A stretch of DNA of 34,595 bases from Akkermansia muciniphila (GTDB lineage: Bacteria > Verrucomicrobiota > Verrucomicrobiia > Verrucomicrobiales > Akkermansiaceae). A model generated the notes under the pieces. The model worked only from the letters and a program-made list of their open reading frames with translations, was not told the origin of the DNA and made no database searches. This document shows positions 9,399-14,740 of the stretch, in pieces (within the stretch, counting starts at the first letter, position 1; every line of letters begins with the position of its first letter). The translations under genes and the position numbers were made by a program. The DNA is taken from NCBI GenBank assembly GCA_945890645.1, contig CAMDCV010000041.1:1-34595 (forward strand), in the 5' to 3' direction.

Positions 9399-10220
9399 TT
9401 ACTTCTTCTGACAAATGCGGCAGAAATACGTGCTGCGCTGACCCTGGGTGATTTTTTTGATTGCGGTGCCGCAGTGGCGGCAGGGTTCGCCTTCGCGCTC
9501 ATAGACGAAAAGCTGCTGTCGGAAGTAGCCGGGTTCGCCGTTTTCGCGGAGGAAATCGCGCAGGGTGGTGCCGCCTTGTTCTATGGATCGACGCAAGACG
9601 TCCTGGATGCTATTCACCAACAAGCGCAGACGCGGCAACGAAATTTTGCAGGCGGGGGTGGCGGGATGAATGCCAGCGATGAACAAAGATTCCGAGGCGT
9701 AAATGTTGCCGACACCAACCACGATCGCATTGTCCATCAGGGTGAGCTTGATAGCACGCTTCATTGTTTTCAGGGCGGATTGCAAGTAGCGCGCGGTGAA
9801 GGCGTCTTCGAGTGGTTCGGGCCCCAGTGATGCGAAGAGCGGGTGCGTAAGTGGATCATCGGCGATGAAGTGCGTGACGATGCCGAAGCGACGCGGGTCG
9901 TGAAAACGCAGTTGTTTGCCGGTCGATAGCGTGAAAGCAATGTGATCGTGCGTGCGGAACTCCGTGGCAGGATCGACAATCCGCAAGCTCCCTGACATGC
10001 CGAGGTGGAGGATGACGTGATGGTGGCCTTTTAGGTGGATGATGAGATACTTCGCACGCCGCGAGACTCCCGTGACAATGCGGCCCTCGATTTCCGCCAG
10101 TGAGAGTGGAACAGACTGCCGCAGATCACGTCGACGGACGATCACTTCCTTGATTGAGGCCTTGATCAAATGCGGCGCGATTCCGCGCAGGGTAGTTTCC
10201 ACTTCCGGCAGTTCAGGCAT
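9399..10220 (-). CDS. mutM: Formamidopyrimidine-DNA glycosylase
   Basis: A 273-residue bifunctional base-excision repair enzyme that removes 8-oxoguanine and FaPy lesions and nicks the abasic site. The start is fixed by MPELPEVET, because Pro2 is the catalytic nucleophile and Glu3 is also required; an upstream in-frame ATG would mask Pro2 and is rejected. Other features are Lys57 in SRRAKYL, the GVGNIYASE DNA-binding loop, and a C-terminal zinc finger with CRHC and CRIC pairs. Length matches the family (about 270). The haem-protein gene begins 76 nt downstream, so the two may share a transcript. No Shine-Dalgarno site is seen. Confidence 0.97.
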   Translation of the reverse strand: MPELPEVETTLRGIAPHLIKASIKEVIVRRRDLRQSVPLSLAEIEGRIVTGVSRRAKYLIIHLKGHHHVILHLGMSGSLRIVDPATEFRTHDHIAFTLSTGKQLRFHDPRRFGIVTHFIADDPLTHPLFASLGPEPLEDAFTARYLQSALKTMKRAIKLTLMDNAIVVGVGNIYASESLFIAGIHPATPACKISLPRLRLLVNSIQDVLRRSIEQGGTTLRDFLRENGEPGYFRQQLFVYEREGEPCRHCGTAIKKITQGQRSTYFCRICQKK

Positions 10221-10289
10221 CGAGCGAAATCGTAAACGACGAGGCGTTTTTGACAATGGGGAATGTAGATATTTCTAGAGCCGAAGGCC

Positions 10290-10446
10290 TTGGACTGCGG
10301 TGAGTATCACCGCTTTTGTGGGATCGTCGATGAGCTAAGACGGTTTGTCGTTGTTTCCGCATTTGCGACCACCCGGAAAGCTGCGATGCTCGCAGCGTTC
10401 CAAGGCGGCTGCGCCGCTGAATTTGATTTGCGGAATAAATTCCGCG
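10290..10446. repeat. Cluster of four short perfect hairpins (REP-like composite repeat)
   Basis: The 239-bp gap between mutM and the large fusion gene holds four consecutive palindromes: GCGGTGA-gta-TCACCGC (10297-10313), GCTGCGA-tgc-TCGCAGC (10380-10396), GCGGC-tgc-GCCGC (10405-10417) and GCGGAAT-aa-ATTCCGC (10430-10445). Three have 3-nt loops. No reading frame here looks like protein. Hairpin-rich intergenic modules of this kind recall REP or MITE sequences. The rest of the gap (10221-10289) holds nothing I can name. Confidence 0.65.
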
Positions 10447-10459
10447 CTCCATCTTGCGT

Positions 10460-13400
10460 TTACTTCATCGGGTGTTCTTTGAGGAGTTCATCGACTAGGT
10501 AGATGGTCTGGCGGCCTTTGGTGGCTTCGCGGACTTTTTTGACTTGGTCGGGCTGGATAGCGGGGGCTTTGTTGCCGAAGTTGTTGCGGACATACGTTAA
10601 GACCGCGGCGACTTCGTCGTCTTTGAGCATGCCGCCAAAAGCTTGCATGGGGACGAGGCCGTCGTATTTTTTGCCGTGGAGTTCGAAGGGTCCCATTAGG
10701 CCGTGGAGGGTGAGTTTGATGAGGCGTTCGGGATCTTGGTTGACCCAGGGACTGTCATTGAGCGGTGGGAAGGCGGGTGCGAGGCCTTTGCCGTCGGCTT
10801 GGTGGCAGGTGGCGCAGTGGGCATCGCGGAAATAAATCTCATGACCAGCGAGGAATTGTTTTTTCTCGGCATCGGTGAGATGAGCCGGAGGCGTGGGAGC
10901 GGGGTGTTCGATCACTTCTGTTTCTGCGACACCAGCGAGTCTATCATTGGCGGTTTTGGCGGCGGCTTTGCTCCAATCATCGAGCGGTTGAGCCGAGGCG
11001 AGGGCGACGACTTTTTTGCCGACGGCATTGTCGAGCCAGGAGGCCGCGACGATGGCTTCGAGGCGAACGCGGCCCTCCGGATCGGTGGCGGCTTTTTCGA
11101 GCATCGCTGGGTGCTCAGGGATAGCATGGTAGTTGTAGCGGATCACGCGGACGCCAGCGGCGCGAGCGCGGAAGTCTTTTGAGGCGAGGACTTGTTTGAG
11201 GAGATCGACATCGACTTTGTTCAGCCCCCAGGTGACGTAGAGGGCTTCGAGAACGTGGTGTTCGTAGCGTGGATCGCTTTTATCGAGTTTGGCGACCCAG
11301 CCTTTAAGAGCGGGCATGACTTCGGCGACGGGCAAGGCGCGGAGGGCGCGGCGTGTGCGATAGCGCGAGCGGTTCTCGGGGAGTTTGAGATTCTCTAATA
11401 AAGTCGCGATCGGTGCACCGTCGATCTGGGCGGGCTTCACGAGTGGGCGCGAAGGGTAGGTGATGCGATAGATACGACCGTGGACGTGGTCGCGGAGGGG
11501 ATCGCGCGCATTGTGCTGCATGTGACCGATGAGAACGTTGTGCCAATCGATGACGAAGAGCGAGCCATCCGGCGCGAATTCAAGGTCGGCGGGGCGGAAA
11601 TTTCCGTCAGAGGATTTGAGTAGTTCGTGGCGGAAGGTGGTTTTGTAGCCGGTGCCTTCATCGGTGATGGCGTGTTGTTTGATTCCGAGGAAACCAATGG
11701 CATTGCAGAGGATGAGATCGCCCTGGACTTCATCGGGGAAGTGGCGGGAGGAAACGACTTCGAGGCCGGAGGTGGGGCGCACGCGTTGGCCCTCGGGGAT
11801 GAGGTCCTTGGTGAGGGGAGTGGTGGCTCCGTATTTGGGTTTCACCGAGGAAGGCATCATCCAGTTCATGGTCGGGCCGGAGGTGTGGAGGAAGAAATCT
11901 TGCCCCCATTGATCAAACACGATGCCCCAAGGATTCGGGATGCTGACCTGAGCGGTGCGCTCGAGCATGCTGCGTTGTGGGCTGTAGCGCCAGAAGCCAC
12001 CATTGACGCCGCGCACGGCACCGTAAGGAGTTTCGACATTGGTATGGAGGAATACGCCTTCACCCATGACAAAAGCACCGGATGGATCGGCGGTATAGGC
12101 GCTGATAGCGTGGTGGGTATCGTGGCTGTCGAAGCCGCCGAGCACGATTTCACGGACGTCGGCCTTGTCGTCGCCGTTGGTATCGCGGAGGAGAACGATG
12201 TTCGGTTCCTCGGAAACATAGACGCCTTCGGGAGCGAACTCGAAACCGATGGGGAGGTGGAGTTTGTCAGCGAAGACCGTTTCCTTGTCGGCCTTGCCAT
12301 CGCCATTGGTGTCTTCGTAAATGAGCAGTTTATCGTTTGGCATCGCATCGCCGGCGCGGTAGTGCGGGTAGGTCGGCATGACGGCAACCCAGAGTCGCCC
12401 TTTGTTGTCGAAGGACAACTGCATCGGATTCGCGAGGTTGGGAAATTCTTTTTCTGAGGCGAAAAGTTCGACTTTGTAGCCTTCGGGCACGGTCAATTTG
12501 CTTTCGGCGTCTTTGCCATAGAGGTAATCGGCAGTGCCGTTTTTACCGCCGGGGCGATAGTTGGTGGGCACGGCAGGTAATGGGTGAGTTTTTGAGTCAT
12601 CGACGGTGAGGTTGGTGGTTTTACCTGACACAACATCAAGAATCAATTGATCGCGCAGGGCGGCCATTTCACGGTTTTTCTTGCCTTCATCGGGATAGTT
12701 TTGCGGGCCGAAAGGAGCGTAACGGCGACCGAAGGCATGAACGCCATTGAGAATGTTATAGTCATGATTCCATAGCCAGTCCTTTTGTTTTACAGCGTCG
12801 AGGACTTTGAGTGGATCGGCTTTCGAAGTGTAAGAAGTTTTGCCATAGAGACCATTCGCAAGGATGGGGGCGAGGGCTTTGTAGCCTTCATCAGTGGGGA
12901 TGAAGCCTTTGTTGGTGAAAGGTTTCTTCGCATTAGCGTAGAGGGCCTTTGTGGGGTTAAAGAGATCGATGAACGTGAGCTTATGCTTCTGTGCGACGCG
13001 CTCCATGGCGGCGGTGTAGAGGGCCAGGTTGGCGTTTTCTTTATCGCCGGTGGGGAGGTCGTGAAGTGTGCTGAGATTTTCGAAGGCGATGGGTGAGACC
13101 AGCACTAAACGTGGTGCGGCTTTGCCGTTGTAGGCTTTGCTGAGGGTGTGGACGACGAAGGCATCGAGCTCGGCTTCGTAATTGGCAACGCGGCTGGGGC
13201 CATCGAACGATTCATTGTAACCGAAAAACGCGACAATGGTATCGGCCTTGAGGAAATGCAGCCATTGGTCAGGGGTGGGAAAAAATCCCTCTCCAGCGTG
13301 AGGTTTAAACTCGGGGCGGAATTGATCGGCGCCTGGGAAAGCCCACTGCGACTTGCGCGAAGGGTGGGGGCGGAAGGCGGGGGTGTCGCCGGGGCGGCCC

Positions 13401-14740
13401 ATGTTGCGGACGAACAATTGTTTGTCCGGGAAGCGCAACTGCAGTTCCGTTTCGAAGCGGCTGTAGTAGAGATCGCGCTCGGCGAGACCGTTGCCAAGGA
13501 AAACGATGCGCTCGCCATTGGAGGGGGCGGCCACTGCCTGTGCGCGGGCCGTGGTGGCGGCGGGTGGCTCTACGATCGGGGCGTGGCTGGCATTCGGCGC
13601 CGTGGTGGCTGCGGGAGCGCTGGCGGCGGGAGCTGCGATGGTAGTGGCGTTGGCTCGTTTTTCGGCGCGGGCTACTTTTTTGTCGGATCGATCATTTTTT
13701 TTTTCAGCGCCCTCTTTGACGGGGAGAGTGGCAGGACTTTTGCCGAGGCCGTAGTCGGCGGGCTTGAGATTGAGCGTTTTGAAATGGGCTTTGTCCTTGA
13801 TGAACTGGAATTTGCTGGGGGTGAGGGGATCGATGTAGGAAACATCGGCCTTTACGGGGACGGGTAGGCCGACCATGTGATGGGAAACATTCACGAAGAG
13901 GCGACGCAGGTCTTCATCGGCGAAGTCGGTGGACGCACCCATGGTGGTGCAGAAGGCTTTTCCTTTGGCGGTGCCATTCGGTGCGGTGTATTCGCGCAAC
14001 CAAGCGAGTGCCATCATGGGAGAGTTTTTCGGGCCCTCGAGATTTTTTGAATCCGGCTCAAGGGTTTCGGTGACTGCACCGCGGAGGAGGATGGTGGCAG
14101 CCTTTGGGTCGAGATTGACGACGCCGTATACATCGCTGGGGCCGAAAACTTCGCCGACATCGGCGAGGACGGGGTGTTTGGCGTTAGCGGCTTCAACTAC
14201 GCCGCGAGTGCCTTGGCTGCCGTGTTGGCCGTGGTGGCTAATCCATTTTTCCCCGAGGATATTGAGTCCGAAGTTCGCCCAAGCGAAGTCGCCTGTTTTC
14301 GCTGGTCCAGTGAAGGCGTGGGTGGCGGTGCGGAAGCCGATGACGGGCTTGCCAGCGTTGAGATACTCAGCGAAGTTCGCGAGTTGCGCATCGGGAAGTT
14401 GGCGGAAGCGGGTTCCAATGATGAGGAGGTCGGCGGATTTTAGCGCCTCGGTGCCGGGGATGTTGTTTTGGAAATTCGGGTCGATATAACCGCCTTCGGG
14501 ATTGATGGCGAAAAGGACTGTGCAATCAAAGCCGAAGCGCTGGCTGAGGATTTTCGCAAGCATCGGGCAGGATTCCTCGCTGCGGTATTCTTCATCGCCG
14601 GAGACGAGAACAATTTTTTTGCCATTGGCGGTCCCGGCTTTGGCAGGGAGGTGCAGCCATTCTTGAGCGGTGGCGTTGAGGGTAAAGGCTGCTGCGATGA
14701 GGCTTGGCAGCCAGCGAGTGAGGAGTTTTGCGGGATTCAT
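10460..14740 (-). CDS. Secreted ThuA / SGNH-like / propeller dehydrogenase / HEAT / cytochrome c fusion
   Basis: A 1426-residue exported protein. A signal peptide ends near residue 25 (LNATA-QEW). A ThuA-like domain (about 35-300; KIVLVSGDEEYRSEE, FRTATHAF) is followed by an Ala/Lys/Thr-rich linker (about 345-405). An SGNH-hydrolase-like domain (about 407-690) has GRPGDTP and FFGYNES but lacks the nucleophile Ser and the DxxH dyad. Next comes a soluble-dehydrogenase-like propeller (from about 748; the Pirellula/Verrucomicrobium 'membrane-bound dehydrogenase' type) with two DTNGD calcium-loop motifs, then HEAT-like helices, and a C-terminal cytochrome c domain with CATCH near residue 1310. Related proteins are abundant in this phylum and their substrates are unknown. 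The gene is divergent from htpG across a 217-bp gap. Confidence 0.88.
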   Translation of the reverse strand: MNPAKLLTRWLPSLIAAAFTLNATAQEWLHLPAKAGTANGKKIVLVSGDEEYRSEESCPMLAKILSQRFGFDCTVLFAINPEGGYIDPNFQNNIPGTEALKSADLLIIGTRFRQLPDAQLANFAEYLNAGKPVIGFRTATHAFTGPAKTGDFAWANFGLNILGEKWISHHGQHGSQGTRGVVEAANAKHPVLADVGEVFGPSDVYGVVNLDPKAATILLRGAVTETLEPDSKNLEGPKNSPMMALAWLREYTAPNGTAKGKAFCTTMGASTDFADEDLRRLFVNVSHHMVGLPVPVKADVSYIDPLTPSKFQFIKDKAHFKTLNLKPADYGLGKSPATLPVKEGAEKKNDRSDKKVARAEKRANATTIAAPAASAPAATTAPNASHAPIVEPPAATTARAQAVAAPSNGERIVFLGNGLAERDLYYSRFETELQLRFPDKQLFVRNMGRPGDTPAFRPHPSRKSQWAFPGADQFRPEFKPHAGEGFFPTPDQWLHFLKADTIVAFFGYNESFDGPSRVANYEAELDAFVVHTLSKAYNGKAAPRLVLVSPIAFENLSTLHDLPTGDKENANLALYTAAMERVAQKHKLTFIDLFNPTKALYANAKKPFTNKGFIPTDEGYKALAPILANGLYGKTSYTSKADPLKVLDAVKQKDWLWNHDYNILNGVHAFGRRYAPFGPQNYPDEGKKNREMAALRDQLILDVVSGKTTNLTVDDSKTHPLPAVPTNYRPGGKNGTADYLYGKDAESKLTVPEGYKVELFASEKEFPNLANPMQLSFDNKGRLWVAVMPTYPHYRAGDAMPNDKLLIYEDTNGDGKADKETVFADKLHLPIGFEFAPEGVYVSEEPNIVLLRDTNGDDKADVREIVLGGFDSHDTHHAISAYTADPSGAFVMGEGVFLHTNVETPYGAVRGVNGGFWRYSPQRSMLERTAQVSIPNPWGIVFDQWGQDFFLHTSGPTMNWMMPSSVKPKYGATTPLTKDLIPEGQRVRPTSGLEVVSSRHFPDEVQGDLILCNAIGFLGIKQHAITDEGTGYKTTFRHELLKSSDGNFRPADLEFAPDGSLFVIDWHNVLIGHMQHNARDPLRDHVHGRIYRITYPSRPLVKPAQIDGAPIATLLENLKLPENRSRYRTRRALRALPVAEVMPALKGWVAKLDKSDPRYEHHVLEALYVTWGLNKVDVDLLKQVLASKDFRARAAGVRVIRYNYHAIPEHPAMLEKAATDPEGRVRLEAIVAASWLDNAVGKKVVALASAQPLDDWSKAAAKTANDRLAGVAETEVIEHPAPTPPAHLTDAEKKQFLAGHEIYFRDAHCATCHQADGKGLAPAFPPLNDSPWVNQDPERLIKLTLHGLMGPFELHGKKYDGLVPMQAFGGMLKDDEVAAVLTYVRNNFGNKAPAIQPDQVKKVREATKGRQTIYLVDELLKEHPMK

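Follow-up and report, generated by a model that had tools for sequence, protein, structure and literature searches.

Four perfect hairpins in a short non-coding stretch raise the question of what kind of element they belong to and how it came to lie where it does. A sequence-only reading of the 34,595-nucleotide stretch of DNA analysed here (the window) had offered a composite REP/MITE element, a structured RNA or a protein-binding array. The first of these fits in its REP form, given the dispersed copies, the covarying stems and, in relatives, the units that flank a RAYT (REP-associated tyrosine transposase) gene. We consider it very probable that positions 10279-10418 are a REPIN spread by a RAYT with the motifs WPHAPPH and NHYH, lying beside a REP singlet of a second family, R2. 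As the R2 unit goes with another RAYT group, the stretch would be a mosaic of two families.

The hairpin cluster and its locus

The contig of the window (C41) belongs to a genome (G000) of 3.82 Mb in 66 contigs that is 97.55% complete. The repeat stretch sits between the ATG (10217) of mutM/fpg, encoding formamidopyrimidine-DNA glycosylase (9399-10217; Pfam PF01149, PF06831 and PF06827), and the stop codon (10460) of a gene for a 1426-amino acid protein (10460-14740), both genes being on the minus strand. According to Pfam, ThuA, GDSL-lipase, DUF7133 and cytochrome c domains occur together in the latter protein. Among 11 loci from 10 genomes of the genus, two of these loci being truncated by contig ends, the gene for the 1426-amino acid protein was found within 1.5 kb of mutM at the window locus only, and in an empty-site comparison the gene order around mutM was not common to the loci compared.

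A hairpin scan of the window recovered all four palindromes of 10290-10446 where they had been reported, with stems of 5-7 bp and loops of 2-3 nt. The first (10297-10313) and second (10380-10396) each have a 7-bp stem and a 3-nt loop, the third (10405-10417) has a 5-bp stem and a 3-nt loop, and the fourth (10430-10445) has a 7-bp stem and a 2-nt loop. Two structures had been missed, a minor fifth hairpin (10280-10288; GCC-GAA-GGC) and a stem joining both ends of the element, and the true limits of the repeat-derived stretch are 10279-10418 plus 10429-10451.

The density of hairpins had been judged far above that of random sequence. The region is indeed the window's only cluster of four hairpins, but dinucleotide shuffling also produced four such hairpins within 157 bp in 5 of 100 versions of the window, which in total contains fewer hairpins of this kind than the shuffles do (58 vs a mean of 74). 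Hairpin density by itself is borderline evidence, and the repetition and covariation described below are stronger. The folding energy of the stretch is lower than that of shuffles, with z scores of -3.6 as DNA, -3.8 as RNA of the minus strand and -2.8 as RNA of the plus strand.

Two repeat families side by side

Rather than a single series of four modules, as had been supposed, the hairpins belong to two repeat families side by side, R1 and R2. The R1 element (10279-10418) consists of a 38-nt unit A (10279-10316, plus strand; 63.7 bits with the R1 covariance model), a variable spacer of about 60 nt (10317-10376) and an inverted 42-nt unit B (10377-10418, 5'-AGCGGCGCAGCCGCCTTGGAACGCTGCGAGCATCGCAGCTTT; 49.8 bits on the minus strand). 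Unit A is made up of an outer mini-hairpin, the fifth hairpin above, which is similar in most unit A copies, followed by the tag CCTTGGACTGC, the 7-bp main hairpin (the first of the four) and TTT. The second and third hairpins are the main hairpin and the outer mini-hairpin of unit B, whose tag is degenerate in the window copy (AACGC for ACTGC). Across 12 own-genome copies the ends are conserved while the spacer drifts; the mean pairwise identity of A is 91% and that of B 79%, against 45% in the aligned centre. The foot of the R1 hairpin is TTGGACTGC or TTGGAGTGC, and neither a GTAG/GTGG nor a CGTC tetranucleotide was found at the hairpin foot of the R1 units examined. The hairpin loop reads G-N-A, with N variable, in 30 of 32 own-genome units; GNA loops are stable loops of single-stranded DNA, and the R1 unit loops are likened to them.

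The stems covary, as an alignment of 34 units (32 from the own genome and two from genome G006) indicates. The main stem is GCGGTGA/TCACCGC in most A units and GCTGCGA/TCGCAGC in most B units, so that A and B differ by paired changes. In 33 distinct units 95.7% of stem cells are paired (87.0% in shuffles), 21 are changed on both sides (7.9 in shuffles), and the covariation score is 0.284 (0.145 in shuffles, at most 0.074 in slid controls); none of 500 shuffles reached any of the three values, though related rows inflate the stem counts. Two further stem measures are weak, namely the pairs changed on both sides (3, reached by 42 of 500 shuffles) and the further pair types (6, reached by 302 of 500). 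A consensus of 16 copies (12 from the own genome, four from one G006 array) gives a fold in which hairpins A and B sit on a terminal stem.

Searching the modules against the host genome and other Verrucomicrobiota, as the sequence-only reading had suggested, bore out their repetition: both families are multi-copy in the own genome, and R1 is present in relatives. A DNA search of the own genome with the repeat stretch gave 55 matches at E≤10, which fall into the two families. With the R1 covariance model at least 37 units were found at E≤0.001 and 42 at E≤1, counts that are lower bounds, 150 of 3083 first-look candidates having been scored. The 37 units form 11 inverted pairs (22 units), the two starts of a pair being 95-120 bp apart, plus 15 that occur singly, and each of the 11 pairs has one A and one B unit. 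R1 is a REP in the broad sense, namely a multi-copy, intergenic, hairpin-forming short palindrome, and it has the structure of a REPIN in that all 11 own-genome pairs are inverted, the spacer is less conserved and the consensus folds over the whole element.

The fourth hairpin lies in a single REP-like unit of R2 (10429-10451, minus strand, 23 nt; 5'-TGGAGCGCGGAATTTATTCCGCA), recognized from its own-genome matches. The own genome contains another 18 R2 matches, of which 11 reach E≤0.01, and four inverted pairs by position, two of which were seen in sequence. Its foot is GGAGCGC. R2-like units, in which GGAACGC or GGAGCGC is followed by GCGGAAT, lie at both ends of a RAYT frame with the motif MPNHVH (L327, 1143-1871, G045:C2), and no R2 unit was found in the own-genome Y1 loci with up to 4 mismatches allowed.

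R1 is found in genus mates and other PVC bacteria. A match at E≤0.001 was present in 17 of 60 genomes and 9 of 16 genera of a family sample, and one at E≤1e-4 under stricter filters in 13 of 145 genomes of a phylum sample. A 27-letter R1 pattern had no match across genome contigs; the looser pattern used instead matched Verrucomicrobiota, Planctomycetota and Lentisphaerae records in at least 117 stretches, 80 of which were obtained as loci. Among the matches listed, 71 of these 80 loci have an R1 model match at E≤0.01, which is partly by construction, and of the eight loci from Proteobacteria, Chloroflexi or Firmicutes, L152 alone has one among the matches listed. R1 copies are arranged in tandem in G006, where four copies repeat with a period of 158, and in G022, where the period is about 202. 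The units of G006 carry CTTTGG in 14 of 15 cases, eight of the 15 coming from one tandem array, and have 4-nt loops by eye; those of the own genome carry CCTTGG in 31 of 32. These lineage-specific versions differ in a way that suggests R1 may have been amplified inside each lineage.

G000 and G006 each have a homogeneous unit version of their own, though no strong cognate RAYT was found in either. In a planctomycete record (L113, 3175-3206) two units joined without a spacer make up a single perfect palindrome, which may be a collapsed REPIN, and overlapping matches similar to these occur at L149 and L124.

The copies in the own genome lie mostly between larger ORFs (23 of 26 sites), and the other three overlap ORFs of 74-93 amino acids. 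Gene settings were assigned with a crude ORF caller at 23 of the 26 sites, three weak ones being left out; 12 are convergent, 10 tandem and one divergent, and at 14 of the 23 a facing stop codon lies no more than 10 bp away. At two loci (L017 at 1501 and L021 at 1379) the AG with which the element begins seems to finish the TAG stop of the preceding gene.

Such positions would also be expected if the repeats were maintained chiefly as transcript-end elements, either terminators or stabilizers of mRNA 3' ends, whatever their origin. Along with the mostly convergent or tandem settings and the nearby stops, the GC-rich hairpin at 10297-10313 is followed by TTTT on the plus strand, and 3 terminator-like sites were found vs 0.8 in shuffles. 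However, the genes flanking the window copy are both on the minus strand, on which no terminator-like site was found, and selection against harmful insertions would be expected to produce the same position bias. A transcript-end role leaves the inverted pairing, the tag and the adjacency to RAYT genes unexplained, and we regard it as unlikely to be the main reason for which the repeats are kept.

In genome G151, two of the 11 recognized pairs have both the A and the B end complete, and each surrounds an open frame of its own, for an FKBP-type isomerase at L262 (829-1621) and for an unmatched 199-amino acid protein at L263 (914-1759). The two pairs share about 40 bp of inner left sequence, as if repeat ends bore cargo, and the remaining G151 pairs are 57 to about 440 bp long. 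Were paired units the termini of a platform that carries genes and is mobilized by a RAYT, REPINs would be the empty forms of small gene cassettes; we consider this improbable as an account of R1.

A RAYT subfamily beside R1 units

Reading R1 as a REPIN spread by a RAYT calls for such a gene beside the same repeats, and a search for it, also suggested at the outset, found one in relatives. The R1-associated RAYT forms a distinct subfamily with an N-terminal WPHAPPH and the HUH motif NHYH. R1 units lie on both sides of one such gene (L247, motif NHYH), and a similar RAYT, 48% identical to the L247 protein, is encoded in the unit-rich genome G022 (L332, picked regardless of units). Strong relatives of these two proteins (E<1e-40) are present in 10 of the 60 family genomes, where R1 units at E≤0.05 lie within 1.5 kb of 8 of 11 strong loci and 0 of 14 weaker ones. 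A second search, with 12 aligned proteins as the query, covered 20 chosen genomes; by the same measure, 8 of the 9 strong loci that it yielded (E<1e-60) have units, as against none of 21 weaker ones, the latter being those with DNA obtained. Combined, R1 units lie beside 16 of 20 strong RAYT loci (15 of 19 when L367, which is L247 and was chosen for its units, is excluded), 0 of 35 weaker matches (33 genes, as L353/L374 and L357/L375 are identical) and 0 of 37 other Y1 loci, four weaker loci (L035, L086, L093 and L103) being counted in both control groups.

Four of the 20 strong loci (L342, L346, L348 and L386) have no R1 unit at E≤0.05; at the last three, a looser tag rule does pick up some units. 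Nor is the tag universal, since the units at L342 and L343 deviate from it. A tag-plus-hairpin rule, devised after viewing the loci and applied equally to controls, places a unit within 500 bp of 14 of 17 strong, 3 of 22 weaker and 1 of 35 other loci, and units on both sides of 11 of 17, 0 of 22 and 0 of 35, respectively; loci shorter than 3000 bases (3 strong, 13 weaker and 2 other) are omitted from these counts.

The association also appears when approached from the repeat. At L162, which was reached via the repeat and not the gene, a RAYT (42% identity, tblastn 1e-45) lies between two R1 pairs whose units are the top-scoring among the 80 listed loci of the repeat scan (51.8 bits). One of these pairs has the same outer hairpin at both ends, so A/B end pairing is not universal. 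Together with L162, the 16 strong loci give the arrangement of a REPtron, a RAYT adjoining the same repeats, in relatives only. Of the 10 genomes in the family sample that have a strong gene, 7 also have R1, which is present in 17 of the 60 sampled (Fisher p=0.0035), and three are without an R1 match; adding three middling matches gives 10 of 13 (p=5e-5), with a cut chosen afterwards. Genomes G045 (56 units) and G015 (26 units) are without a strong gene, G015 having a middling match.

The proteins themselves are recognizable RAYTs, whose HUH and tyrosine core is related to that of TnpA-REP. The REP-associated tyrosine transposase model NF047646 is matched at E≤0.001 by each of the 12 aligned proteins; the first aligned member scores 75.3 bits, below the cut-off of 80, and the L247 protein 81.9. 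The HUH histidines (H64 and H66) and two tyrosines (Y120 and Y126) are invariant in the 12, and TnpA-REP (4ER8) is the only convincing solved relative (E 3e-10).

No strong WPHAPPH RAYT was found in the own genome, and thus no cognate RAYT for its REPINs, nor in eight other genus genomes (G005 was left out, and G002 and G008 are less than 90% complete). The own genome has eight PF01797 matches. One of them is a RAYT (L035, 1088-1905, G000:C19; NF047646 88.1 bits, cut-off 80) flanked by inverted repeats of its own, which are 26 nt long, 96% complementary and unlike R1. Because no RAYT of the WPHAPPH kind was found in its genome, the window R1 copy is an orphan, which loss of the RAYT gene, an assembly gap or another RAYT acting in trans could explain.

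Other mobilizers were considered and set aside. Y1 transposases in general do not accompany R1: no unit at E≤0.1 was found at 37 Y1 loci of eight genomes (L038, next to L034, was left out), and at E≤0.05 units were near 4 of 30 Y1 loci of eight further genomes (L238, L246, L247 and L257), on both sides at L247 alone. Nor do other RAYTs, as among 40 loci and 9 earlier ones L302 and L247 alone have units at E≤0.05, and many other RAYT genes end in different inverted repeats. As to an autonomous element between widely spaced units, the frames at L116 and L117 look like ordinary genes by eye.

The same loci bear on whether R1 is MITE-like, left behind by a classical DDE transposon or an IS200/IS605 element. 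Its length of about 140 bp, terminal inverted repeats, intergenic position and copy number would all suit a MITE, and a unit lies about 200 bp downstream of the IS200-type locus L238. By eye, however, no target-site duplication was seen in 10 flank pairs, although duplications of 2-3 nt could escape; single units occur alongside pairs; and 37 Y1 loci are without R1, while one of the four with units, L247, is itself that of a WPHAPPH RAYT. We regard a MITE origin as very unlikely. A structured non-coding RNA, for which the minus-strand folding (z -3.8) and the stem covariation would speak, is least probable of all, given 0 Rfam matches in the window at the gathering score, a centre that is not conserved, units that exist singly and units that are lineage-specific.

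Proposed mobility and described REP systems

In single-stranded DNA the REPIN of the window would be able to form a terminal stem, each arm of which bears a hairpin. TnpA-REP cuts single-stranded REP and requires a 5' tag, according to the available portion of PMC8266576, and by likeness to it the RAYT, an HUH/Y1 single-strand DNA transposase, would read the hairpin with the 5' tag TTGGASTGC and the 3' TTT on one strand. It may then cut and rejoin single-stranded REPIN copies and insert them between genes, often directly behind stop codons.

A literature search, with subscription papers mostly outside it, found no description of the R1 repeat, and a text search for TTGGACTGCGG listed papers on insects or osteosarcoma. 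A repeat that is widespread in Verrucomicrobiota and other PVC bacteria, and for which the literature searched gave no description, is now tied to a RAYT subfamily. It provides a REP system that retains the hairpin logic with a different tag, enzyme-substrate pairs for studying which features of single-stranded DNA are read by RAYTs, and an instance of homogeneous-looking REPINs in a genome where no cognate RAYT was found.

REPINs have been described as RAYT-linked inverted doublets accompanied by decaying single units and are reported in tandem arrays, as far as the accessible text of PMC3116915 goes. R1 resembles the REPIN/BIME systems in the accessible portions of PMC3116915 and PMC8266576 in its short palindromes paired in inverted orientation around a spacer of lower conservation, its single units, its tandem arrays, its intergenic placement and, in relatives, the RAYT beside the same repeats. 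R1 differs from those systems, as portrayed there, in that its 11 own-genome pairs each combine an A end with a B end, in having the tag TTGGASTGC and the 3' TTT in place of GTAG, and in an own genome where no RAYT of the WPHAPPH type was found. Palindromic REP families, both single and dimeric, are likewise covered in the available part of PMC3733652, which reports such families for the verrucomicrobium O. terrae; the defining feature of the REPs there is an end that reads GTAG (sometimes GTGG) or CGTC, whereas R1 has neither.

The nearest described proteins seem to be those of TnpA-Y1 subclass 2.8 in the available portion of PMC6006769, which share with the WPHAPPH RAYT the motif NHYH, a length of about 200 amino acids, REP-flanked genes and, as we read the relevant passage, a proline-rich N-terminus. 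In the sample of that paper subclass 2.8 comprises eight proteins from Cyanobacteria only, with relatives in other phyla mentioned, and has GT[AG]G REPs, whereas the WPHAPPH RAYT, compared by description, comes from Verrucomicrobiota, Planctomycetota and Lentisphaerae records and has a different tag. Genes flanked by hairpin repeats without GT[AG]G, as in the R1 system, are described in the same portion for subclass 2.6 and class 3, but subclass 2.6 has NH[LIV]H and is mostly from Bacteroidetes, and class 3 combines NHVH with a Y----Q motif and a CnGA foot. With REPs, REPINs and RAYTs already known, what R1 adds to them is a variant with another tag and its link to a RAYT subfamily.
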